Part shown: in pieces, positions 2,297 through 6,902 of the stretch | Layout: the number at the start of each line of letters is the position of its first letter | Numbering within the stretch: the stretch's first letter is position 1 | From: Bacteroidota bacterium | Lineage (GTDB): Bacteria; Bacteroidota; Bacteroidia; 2-12-FULL-35-15 | Length of the DNA stretch: 64,000 bases | NCBI GenBank assembly: GCA_003151815.1 | Contig: PLYN01000060.1 | Span: 58,180-122,179, forward strand | Reading direction: 5' to 3' | Position numbers and translations under genes: made by a program | Notes under the pieces: generated by a model | What the model saw: only the letters and a program-made list of their open reading frames with translations | Told to the model about the DNA's origin: nothing | Database searches by the model: none

Positions 2297-3331
2297 ATGT
2301 ATAAAACAATCATAAAACCCGTTTTATTTCTTTTTCAGCCCGAAACAATTCATCACATTGTTTTTAAAATCATAAAGTTTTTATCTTCCATTCCCAGCTT
2401 TTCAACGATCATTCGGAGAATCTATATAATAGATGATAAACGTTTGGAGCGTAAATTATTCGGACTTACATTTCCTAATCCGGTGGGACTTGCGGCTGGT
2501 TTTGATAAAGATGCAAAATTGTTTGATGAGTTGGGTAACTTCGGATTTGGTTTTATTGAAATAGGAACCCTTACTCCTAAAGCACAACCGGGAAACGAAA
2601 AACCGAGAATGTTTCGATTGCCCGAGGATGAAGCATTGATAAATCGGATGGGATTCAATAATAGTGGCGTTGATGCTGCTGTTGAGCGTTTGAAAAAACG
2701 TAGATCAAGAATTATTGTTGGTGGCAATATCGGTAAAAATAAAAACACTCCCAATGAAGAAGCTGTAAATGATTACTCAATATGCTTTGAAGCACTTTTT
2801 GATTATGTAGATTATTTTGCTGTCAATGTTAGTTCGCCGAATACTCCAAACCTTCGTGCACTGCAAGATAAGGCACCATTAACACATTTATTAAAGCATT
2901 TAAAAGAGATCAATTCGCAAAAGAAAAACCCAAAACCAATCCTATTAAAAATTGCACCTGATCTGACAAATGCCCAATTGGATGATATTATTGACATAGT
3001 TAAAGAAACAAAAATTGATGGTGTAATAGCAACAAATACAACCATTTCGAGAGAAGGGCTAAAGACTCAAAACTTAAAACTAAAGACTCAAAACGGTGGT
3101 TTAAGTGGAAAACCTTTATCTAAAAGATCTACTGAAGTTGTCAAATATTTGAGTGATAGATCCAATAAAGCATTTCCAATTATTGCTGTTGGTGGGATCC
3201 ATACGGCTGATGATGCAATAGAAAAATTAAATGCAGGAGCGAGTTTAGTGCAAATTTATACAGGTTTCATTTATGAAGGACCGGGTATTGCTAAACGAAT
3301 TAATAAAAAAATATTAGCGAATAGCCAATAA
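2297..3331 (+). CDS. pyrD: Dihydroorotate dehydrogenase (quinone), class 2
   Basis: [83 protein letters not shown]. Confidence 0.97.
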
Positions 3332-3370
3332 GGCAATAGTTATAAGCTATTTAGAAAAACTTATCGTAAG

Positions 3371-4870
3371 ATGAAACTAAACAAATTTATTTGGGACATA
3401 TATAAACAATCCGAGGAAGGACAAAAAATAATTAATTTATTTGAAAATGGTACTTGTGAAGAAATAGTAGAGTTTGCAAAAATAGAAGTCAAGACAAAAT
3501 CGGAAACATTTAATCTTTGTGAATTTATAAACGACATATCTAAATATATTTCAGAACCAATAATTCCCGAACCAAATAAAATTAATTTAGAAACTGCTAA
3601 AATAATTATTGAGGATATTGCAAAAAATGGTTTTAAATTAAAATTTGAAGATGGAGAAATTGAAGAGTGTTCAGCGGAAGGATATGACATTCTTTATTTA
3701 GTTCCAGTTATTTCAATCAGTTTATTTAATATAAATCCTCAATACTTTAAACCATATTTTTTTAGAACTAAATTTAAACTCCTTACTCAAATAGCAGACG
3801 CATTTGAAATTGAATTGCCCGAAGTTCCATTAAAAAGATATAAAGAAGAACGCATAAATTATTATTGGAAACTATGTGAAACCTTTTACTATTTTCAAGA
3901 AGAAAATAAATTAACCCCTTCTGAATTTTGTGCCTTCTTGTATGACTTCGCGCCAAAATTTATTTCTGAAAGTGAACAAGCTCTTTCAGAACTTCCAAAA
4001 CCAACACAAGTATGGATGGTTGGAGGTGACCAAGGAGGACGCGATATGGACTTTTTAGATAGTGATGAAATAGGAAGGACACATTTTTGGCAAGGAAATG
4101 TGGATACAAAACGAGGCGATATAATAATTATGTATTGCCTTACACCAAGAAGTTATATTCATTCAATTTGGAGAGCAATATCAGATGGTATTGCCGACCC
4201 TTTCTTTCATTACTACGGCAGCATTTATATTGGAGAAGGCAAAAAAATTGCGCCAATTTCTCTTAAAGAATTAAAAGCAGACGAATATTTTAGCAAACAT
4301 CCATTAGTAAGAAAAAACTTACAAGGTTTAAATGGTTATCCATTCACTTCTGATGATTATCAACGCTTACAACAAATGATAATTAATAATGGAGGAAATA
4401 TACAAGACCTTCCTCAACCTTATAGTCCTGCTTTTTCAGATAATGAAAATCTAAACAATGAAAGAGAAGTTGAGATAACGCTTATTGAACCATTTTTACA
4501 CGAGCTCGGTTATACTGATAAACATTGGGTAAGACAACTTTCAGTACGAATGGGAAGAGGCGAAAGAAATTTTCCAGATTATGCTTTTCTCACACAAGCA
4601 GAGAAAAATTATGAAGAAGCGTCAATGCTTATTGAGGCAAAATATTGGATAAAAAATAACAAAGAATTAGAAGAAACTTTTAAACAAGTATGGTCATACG
4701 GACAACGGCTAACAGCAAAAGTTTTAGTTATCGCTGACAAGAACGCAATTTGGATTTACGAAAGAAACAATGATAGTTTTGACCGAACTAAATACATAAA
4801 AAAATATTGGAAAGAACTCGAACAACCTGACAACTTTAAAGATATAAAACGAATAATAGGACGAAAATAA
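3371..4870 (+). CDS. EVE-like domain plus C-terminal PD-(D/E)xK (HsdR_N-like) nuclease domain protein; candidate modification-dependent restriction/defence protein
   Basis: Central segment WMVGGDQGG..THFWQGNVDTKRGDIIIMYCLTPRSYIHSIWRAISDGIADPFFHYYGSIYIGEGKKIAPISLKELKAD resembles EVE/PUA-like; C-terminal FPDYAF...SMLIEAKYW...QVWSYGQRL resembles HsdR_N PD-(D/E)xK. Confidence 0.7.
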   Translation: MKLNKFIWDIYKQSEEGQKIINLFENGTCEEIVEFAKIEVKTKSETFNLCEFINDISKYISEPIIPEPNKINLETAKIIIEDIAKNGFKLKFEDGEIEECSAEGYDILYLVPVISISLFNINPQYFKPYFFRTKFKLLTQIADAFEIELPEVPLKRYKEERINYYWKLCETFYYFQEENKLTPSEFCAFLYDFAPKFISESEQALSELPKPTQVWMVGGDQGGRDMDFLDSDEIGRTHFWQGNVDTKRGDIIIMYCLTPRSYIHSIWRAISDGIADPFFHYYGSIYIGEGKKIAPISLKELKADEYFSKHPLVRKNLQGLNGYPFTSDDYQRLQQMIINNGGNIQDLPQPYSPAFSDNENLNNEREVEITLIEPFLHELGYTDKHWVRQLSVRMGRGERNFPDYAFLTQAEKNYEEASMLIEAKYWIKNNKELEETFKQVWSYGQRLTAKVLVIADKNAIWIYERNNDSFDRTKYIKKYWKELEQPDNFKDIKRIIGRK

Positions 4871-4920
4871 AAAAGCACCCGAAACATTAATCGGGAATAG
4901 AATTTAGAATTTTGTAAAAT

Positions 4921-5769
4921 ATGAAAATTATCGAATGTCCGCGTGATGCGATGCAAGGCATACATGAATTTATACCAACTGAAAAAAAAGTTGCCTATAT
5001 CAATTCGTTGCTAAAAGTTGGTTTTGATACCATTGATTTTGGAAGTTTTGTTTCACCCAAAACGATTCCTCAAATGCGTGATACAGCGCAGGTTTTGGAG
5101 CAATTGGATTTAAGCATCTCCAAATCAAAATTGCTTTCAATTATTGCAAATGTAAGAGGAGCACAGGATGCCGTTGAGTTTGAAGAAATTGATTATTTAG
5201 GTTTTCCTTTCTCCATTTCAGAAACATTTCAACAACGCAACACGAATTCATCCATTTCTGAATCACTAACAAGAGTGGAGGAAATACATGATCTATGTGT
5301 CCGAAATAAAAAAGAGCTGGTCGTATATATTTCAATGGCTTTTGGCAATCCTTATGGAGATGAATGGAGCAGTGATGTGGTTATAAAATGGACAAAACGT
5401 TTGGCCCAAATGGGAATTAAAATTATTGCCTTATCCGATACGATAGGCGTTTCCGATCCTCAAAATATTTCATTCCTGTTCTCGAAATTAGTTCCCGAAT
5501 TTCCGGATGTTGAAATTGGAGCGCATTTACATACAACACCGGATACTTGGGAAGAAAAAGTAAATGCTGCATACATTAGCGGTTGCCGCAGGTTTGATAG
5601 CACAATTAAAGGCTATGGAGGTTGCCCGATGGCTGCTGATAAATTAACCGGAAACATGCCTACTGAAAATTTATTATCTTATTTCGAGAAAAGAAATATA
5701 TCCACAGGTATTGATAAGGTAGCTTTTGAAGAAGCAATGATTATTGCTACAAAAACTTTTCCAGTATAG
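4921..5769 (+). CDS. Hydroxymethylglutaryl-CoA lyase
   Basis: ECPRDAMQGI, DFGSFVSPK, IALSDTIGVSDP, GAHLHTTP, DSTIKGYGGCPMA. Confidence 0.9.
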   Translation: MKIIECPRDAMQGIHEFIPTEKKVAYINSLLKVGFDTIDFGSFVSPKTIPQMRDTAQVLEQLDLSISKSKLLSIIANVRGAQDAVEFEEIDYLGFPFSISETFQQRNTNSSISESLTRVEEIHDLCVRNKKELVVYISMAFGNPYGDEWSSDVVIKWTKRLAQMGIKIIALSDTIGVSDPQNISFLFSKLVPEFPDVEIGAHLHTTPDTWEEKVNAAYISGCRRFDSTIKGYGGCPMAADKLTGNMPTENLLSYFEKRNISTGIDKVAFEEAMIIATKTFPV

Positions 5770-5837
5770 TTTGTCCATAACAATGATTTTAATCTTTATT
5801 TTTGAGTATCTTTGTATTAACTATAAATTAAATTAAA

Positions 5838-6902
5838 ATGCAAAAAGTCATTTTTAATAATAAGAATAGTTTGTTTTTTGATACCCTGAAACAAAAAGTT
5901 GACGGTTATTTTAAGTCAAACAATATTCGTGAAACAGGAAATTTTAAATTATATATTAAAACAATATTACTTCTTTTATCCGCCTCTTCACTATATGTCA
6001 TTTTAGTGTTTTTTACACCTTCTTTCGGTCTTTCCGTTTTTTTATGCTGCGTTATGGGCTTCAATCTTGCTGCTATTGGTTTTAACACCATGCACGATGG
6101 CGCTCACGGTAGTTTTTCCCGAAAAACATGGGTAAATGAACTAATGGCTTTTTCGTTGAACGCCATGGGTGGAAATGCATTTTTATGGAAGGCAAAACAC
6201 AATGTATTCCATCATTCATATACGAACATTGAAGGTATGGATGAGGATATTGATATCAAACCTTGGATACGCGTTAATGAAAATCAAAAAAAATATTGGT
6301 ATCATAGATTTCAACATATCTATTGGGTAATATTATATGGGACAACTTATTTTTTGTGGGTTTACATACAAGATTTTCAAAAATATTTTTCCGGAAAAAT
6401 AGGGGATAATAAATTCAAAAAAATGGAACTGTCGGATCATTTTGTTTTTTGGATAAGTAAAATTTTATATGTGTCAGTGTTTCTTGTATTACCTATATTT
6501 GTAGTTGGTGTAAAAGATACGATCATTGGCTATTCGATTATTAGTTTTGTAACGGGTTTTGTGATCTCTGTAGTGTTTCAATTGGCGCATATTGTAGAAG
6601 ATGCTTCATTTCATTTACCGGATAATAAATCTTTTAAAATTGATACGGAATGGGCCGTTCATCAAATTCAAACAACGGCCGATTTTGCAACGAAAAGCAA
6701 ACTGGTTTCTTGGTTTACCGGCGGATTAAATTTTCAGGTAGAGCACCATTTATTTCCGCGTATTAGTCACGTTCATTATCCAAAGATCAGCCAATTGGTG
6801 AAAGAAACATGTGAGCAGTTCGGTATAAATTACATGGAGTTTCCAACGCTTTTAAGCGCTGTCCGTTCGCATGTTGTGCATTTAAAAACAGTTGGTCAAT
6901 AA
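5838..6902 (+). CDS. Fatty acid desaturase (acyl-CoA/lipid desaturase)
   Basis: Histidine boxes HDGAH, HNVFHH, QVEHHLFP and multiple TM segments. Confidence 0.95.
   Translation: MQKVIFNNKNSLFFDTLKQKVDGYFKSNNIRETGNFKLYIKTILLLLSASSLYVILVFFTPSFGLSVFLCCVMGFNLAAIGFNTMHDGAHGSFSRKTWVNELMAFSLNAMGGNAFLWKAKHNVFHHSYTNIEGMDEDIDIKPWIRVNENQKKYWYHRFQHIYWVILYGTTYFLWVYIQDFQKYFSGKIGDNKFKKMELSDHFVFWISKILYVSVFLVLPIFVVGVKDTIIGYSIISFVTGFVISVVFQLAHIVEDASFHLPDNKSFKIDTEWAVHQIQTTADFATKSKLVSWFTGGLNFQVEHHLFPRISHVHYPKISQLVKETCEQFGINYMEFPTLLSAVRSHVVHLKTVGQ

Follow-up and report, generated by a model that had tools for sequence, protein, structure and literature searches.

Introduction

The 64,000-nucleotide stretch of Bacteroidota DNA analysed here (the window) carries, between pyrD and a gene for an HMGL-like lyase, a single reading frame that a first-pass annotation made from the letters alone had read as a solitary restriction or defence enzyme. 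This raises the questions of whether the gene is real, whether it is native to its site, what its three regions are and which role they may serve together.

A conserved gene without a name

The reading frame proved exact in its coordinates, from ATG to TAA on the forward strand, and the two flanking genes are those named at first pass (Table 1). The full-length relatives, which share 48–69% identity in Bacteroidota and 30–35% for the distant members, indicate a conserved gene rather than a chance ORF. Searches of Pfam, NCBIfam, PADLOC and PDB sequences with the 499-residue protein or with the family alignment returned nothing significant, only sub-threshold or chance matches, the best Pfam match of the window protein alone being HSDR_N_2 (E 0.013), under the cut-off. 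The gene is a member of a rare family that is unnamed in the annotation databases searched (Pfam, NCBIfam and PADLOC), and the family is therefore missed by current defence annotation.

Six loci with relatives at 56–68% identity were recovered from a genome contig collection; their hosts are Rufibacter, a Chitinophagaceae MAG, two near-identical Bacteroidetes MAG copies, Chryseobacterium carnipullorum and a same-genus MAG with a truncated copy. Full-length relatives at 30–31% identity are found on two Deinococcus plasmids, and a divergent branch (35% identity) occurs in Bacteroidota, including genomes of a Chryseobacterium sample, and the family set counts ~15 sequences from Bacteroidota and Deinococcota. 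The distribution is sporadic, at about 0.5–3% of genomes per sample: 2/147 relatives, 2/398 sampled Bacteroidota, 6/176 genomes of a Chryseobacterium genus sample and 1/196 of a Rufibacter order sample, the query genome being part of every count. A search of 50,697 phage records for the family gave no match.

Table 1. Features of the locus, in window coordinates
Feature	Position	Strand	Basis
pyrD neighbour	2297-3331		PF01180 DHO_dh, E 5.5e-91
Inserted segment, pyrD stop to HMGL start	3332..4920	.	missing in relatives
Complete gene, 499 aa (helical N-domain + EVE + PD-(D/E)xK nuclease)	3371..4870	+	ATG to TAA; full-length relatives
N-terminal helical domain, residues 1-205	3371..3985	+	AF2 helices; no library family
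EVE domain, residues 213-336	4007..4378	+	hhalign to EVE profile
PD-(D/E)xK nuclease domain, HsdR_N-like, residues 355-499 + stop	4433..4870	+	profile, fold, invariants
E368, predicted catalytic helix glutamate	4472..4474	+	invariant, 15/15 members
D403 of PD motif	4577..4579	+	invariant, 14/14 members reaching it
E422-x-K424, (D/E)xK motif	4634..4642	+	invariant, 14/14 members reaching it
Q439-x3-Y443, QxxxY-type motif	4685..4699	+	invariant, 14/14 members reaching it
HMGL-like lyase neighbour	4921-5769		PF00682, E 3.3e-22

Insertion between pyrD and the lyase gene

The lyase gene was recovered together with its flanks from 23 same-genus genomes. In every one of them pyrD precedes it by 2–185 bp (measured between aligned ends) and no gene intervenes, whereas the window interval measures 1589 bp and is occupied by the 499-residue gene. 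This difference marks the gene as an accessory insertion and not as a component of the pyrD neighbourhood, the outcome that favours the first-pass reading in the synteny comparison proposed there. The gene is horizontally acquired; the pyrD–lyase sequences compared showed neither an insertion sequence nor obvious repeats at the flanks. On the far side of the lyase gene, the gap to a fatty acid desaturase gene (5769–5838) is ~70 bp in the window but at least ~570 bp in same-genus relatives, so that this flank, too, has been altered, by rearrangement or by shortening. Immediately ahead of the start codon, positions 3352–3371 of the window and 450–475 of the copy found in a Kiruna MAG (locus L008) are near-identical, AAAAACYTATCGTAAG, in surroundings that differ; this may be a shared leader that moved along with the gene.

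These data also bear on a housekeeping or repair nuclease that would apply its EVE domain to damaged or modified bases. PD-(D/E)xK and EVE domains are both known in cellular nucleic-acid metabolism, and one distant relative stands beside a Pyr_excise-family gene. However, a gene that is missing in 145/147 relatives and from the 23/23 pyrD–HMGL sites of the genus, and that is plasmid-borne in Deinococcus, makes such a role highly improbable.

An EVE domain in the middle of the chain

Many EVE domains of predicted EVE-PD(D/E)xK enzymes are detectable only by sensitive methods (PMC7641849). Here, the Pfam EVE model matched one member below the cut-off (E 0.042). When residues 208–352 of the family were compared with a profile of 30 EVE proteins from related genomes, hhalign aligned the two near end to end with a probability of 95.6% (E 1.1e-8), and with 96.3% (E 2e-9) once 15 family members were used. 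The match score of 54.0 was reached in 0/150 column shuffles (maximum 21.9), and the reversed profile scored 14.8. By hhalign too, the EVE profile found nothing in the N- and C-domains, and the EVE segment nothing in HsdR_N or SduA_C. The EVE-like segment perceived in the first-pass annotation is thus recovered by profile comparison while being missed by Pfam alone, and the protein possesses the EVE domain expected of an EVE-PD(D/E)xK type IV enzyme.

AlphaFold reached a pLDDT of 33 on the single sequence and 68 on a 7-sequence alignment that leaves out the distant plasmid and genome relatives. Since this latter AF2 model is poor over much of the EVE region (pLDDT blocks of 33–83), it is the profile comparison, rather than the model, that carries the assignment. 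The domain holds the invariant residues W215, W240, G249-D250, Y255, P277-F278 and Q318-G319. In one sub-branch of the alignment, WQG is replaced by WTC or WAC and PFFHY by PFNYY, and the ligand may therefore differ within the family. In the EVE-HNH enzyme VcaM4I, 5mC or 5hmC is flipped into a pocket formed by P24, W82 and Y130 (PMC7897488). The counterparts of these three residues in the window EVE domain can be placed only tentatively, and its putative pocket is represented by candidate residues.

A C-terminal HsdR_N-like nuclease

The nuclease core spans residues ~364–466 and is of the HsdR_N/type IIG-like kind. HSDR_N matched 5/7 members (best E 4.4e-4) and HSDR_N_2 4/7 (best E 2e-4), with printed scores that fall under the curated cut-off. 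Profile comparison with HsdR N-termini aligned the D...ExK...Q core (hhalign E 4e-4), a score that 0/150 shuffles reached, and the catalytic motif is unchanged down to 30% identity and across two phyla. The 7-sequence AF2 model is better here (block pLDDT 66–91 over residues 361–499), and Foldseek placed it among restriction-endonuclease folds, with matches to 9y1l (prob 0.99) and to the DrdV nuclease domain (prob 0.99, TM 0.60 by target). It also matched 6okh (prob 0.98), described only as uncharacterized, and the best match in the viral library was a phage HsdR_N-domain protein (prob 0.98). As none of the Foldseek matches reached E 0.001, this fold evidence is supporting and not decisive by itself. 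Taken with the weak family matches and the profile alignment, it upholds the HsdR_N-like PD-(D/E)xK module proposed at first pass, and the invariance of E368, D403, E422 and K424 means that a nuclease with intact catalytic residues shares its chain with the EVE domain.

Three known assignments were considered and set aside. The protein is not a type I R subunit (HsdR), as its chain stops after the nuclease domain at 499 residues and shows no helicase match. It is not a Shedu protein: hhalign of the C-domain against SduA_C/DUF4263 (PF14082, a profile from three proteins only) gave 0.1%, with no Pfam or PADLOC match. An McrBC-type system is equally inapplicable, the protein having no AAA+/GTPase domain and the adjacent genes no McrC-like member.

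The N-terminal helical domain

The first-pass annotation had singled out the N-terminus as helical, of no obvious family and least explained, and this description holds. The 7-sequence AF2 model shows residues 1–205 as helical (pLDDT about 47–88), and a comparison of this segment with Pfam, NCBIfam, PADLOC and PDB sequences gave no match. Its invariant residues in the family alignment are Y11, F24, S115, L118, P128, P150, K155, R161, A188 and F193. A profile of residues 1–205 run against 398 Bacteroidota genomes found it in no other architecture, only together with the EVE-nuclease. The domain probably serves in dimerisation, autoinhibition or as a second recognition surface. A bolder proposal is that these ~205 residues form an unrecognised second sensor or oligomerisation switch, in which case the proteins would make up a two-input, single-chain restriction family, spread between Bacteroidota and Deinococcota and reading a base modification outside those of the known EVE enzymes; we regard this as unlikely.

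Genomic contexts of the relatives

Several relatives lie in defence loci. That of Deinococcus sp. QL22 is encoded within a BREX locus, with pglZ/brxL on one side and a methylase, brxC and brxB on the other. A type IIG restriction-methyltransferase (PADLOC 1485 bits) is encoded ~2.4 kb away from the D. proteolyticus relative, and one of the two near-identical Bacteroidetes MAG copies (L006) is found directly upstream of hsdM, fic, hsdS and hsdR, while the locus of the other (L005) ends on hsdM-like sequence, by reading. At the other loci whose flanks could be read, the setting is solitary or mixed, and no defence genes adjoin most members in the flanks read. A methyltransferase gene may therefore be dispensable as a partner, although it is not rare as one: none adjoins the window gene or most relatives in the flanks read, and one is nearby in three kinds of relative locus.

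This pattern could be taken to mean that the protein is an accessory subunit of neighbouring methyltransferase-based systems (type I RM, BREX, type IIG) that cuts modified or system-marked DNA and does not act autonomously, given the hsdM/S/R, BREX and type IIG genes found beside or close to relatives. Such dependence is rather improbable, since no methyltransferase gene adjoins the window gene or some nine relatives in the flanks read, the type I operon of L006 already has its own HsdR and the three partner systems are mutually unrelated.

The BREX locus also recalls a toxin-like, abortive-infection nuclease. Its EVE domain would sense a modified RNA or a nucleotide signal of infection and free the nuclease on host DNA, with the N-domain as a Shedu-like regulator. 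Binding of RNA modifications and service in toxin modules are among the other roles of EVE domains (PMC7641849); auxiliary PD-(D/E)xK effectors have been described in BREX loci (PMC12839542), where the QL22 relative resides; and a single-chain sensor joined to a PD-(D/E)xK nuclease resembles Shedu in general form. Nevertheless, the nuclease matches HsdR_N and not SduA_C, and no antitoxin-like partner recurs beside the gene. We consider this toxin-like role unlikely, albeit less so than that of an accessory subunit.

Further observations concern individual loci. In the QL22 BREX locus (L010, 9274–17167), two GTPase genes, one of them IIGP-like, adjoin the nuclease relative; the locus also includes a gene with a DarT-like annotation. 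A divergent relative (L118, 2183–8554) follows TerD-like and vWA-like genes, as read from their translations only, in a possible tellurite-resistance-type stress cluster. Two members of the Chryseobacterium sample (L116, 7001–8485; L117, 6986–8470) carry the gene at one shared site, flanked by a glycosyltransferase-like gene and the gene for a conserved secreted protein, with a 4 bp overlap with the next gene; the acquired gene can therefore be kept stably. Outside the window, its own genome contains several HSDR_N matches, some in frames of ~1000 aa, which suggests that the organism has more than one type I restriction system in other parts of its genome.

Proposed mechanism

Altogether, the window gene most probably encodes a solitary, self-contained, modification-dependent (type IV-like) DNA endonuclease. 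The interpretation of domains and insertion in the first-pass annotation is supported by our results, which went in its favour on both points named there as possible refutations. From these results we infer that the target is DNA, that cleavage depends on base modification, that the protein is self-sufficient and that it acts against phages. The BREX, type I RM and type IIG loci around several relatives add a defence context, and the reader–cutter mechanism is proposed by analogy with VcaM4I, in which base flipping by the EVE domain is coupled to an HNH nuclease. Incoming DNA with a modified base, most likely a cytosine derivative such as 5mC or 5hmC, would have that base flipped into the pocket of the EVE domain. 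Once the base is captured, the C-terminal PD-(D/E)xK domain would be brought into place or set free, and would cut the DNA with metal ions held by E368, D403 and E422, together with K424. An NTPase or methyltransferase partner would not be needed.

If this holds true, a compact, NTP-independent family of reader–cutter enzymes would be gained, and its ~15 sequences offer clear candidates for catalytic and pocket residues. Modified DNA is common among phages, and the mapping of DNA modifications also benefits from new enzymes that read modified bases.

Comparison with known systems

Like the window family, Shedu (SduA, PF14082) is a single protein with a variable N-terminal module and a C-terminal PD-(D/E)xK nuclease. 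The MspJI and PvuRts1I families combine an SRA domain with a PD-(D/E)xK nuclease and are NTP-independent. They share with the window family a reader of the PUA superfamily and a PD-(D/E)xK cutter, but differ by SRA versus EVE, by domain order and by nuclease subfamily. BrxU, a type IV enzyme made of one chain, is encoded within a BREX locus and suffices by itself (PMC8565348). BrxU/GmrSD enzymes resemble the window family as single-chain, modification-dependent proteins (presumably so for the latter) that can be encoded within BREX, whereas they are NTP-dependent and consist of DUF262 and DUF1524 domains, which are unrelated to those of the window protein. VcaM4I is likewise a fusion of an EVE reader to a nuclease in a single gene with no NTPase, although it has an HNH nuclease, an N-terminal EVE domain and no helical N-domain, while the window family has a PD-(D/E)xK nuclease and its EVE domain in the middle (PMC7897488).

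The closest comparison is with the substantial variety of EVE-PD(D/E)xK type IV enzymes predicted by Bell, Wolf and Koonin in 2020, owing to which the window gene belongs to an already predicted kind (PMC7641849); our literature search found no characterised enzyme of this kind. The two core domains, their union in one chain and the predicted role are shared, but the window family has an extra helical N-domain of ~205 residues for which no relative was found. To this prediction, our work adds a particular unnamed family that has an N-domain of its own, along with its occurrence in two phyla, the demonstration of its empty sites and its defence contexts.
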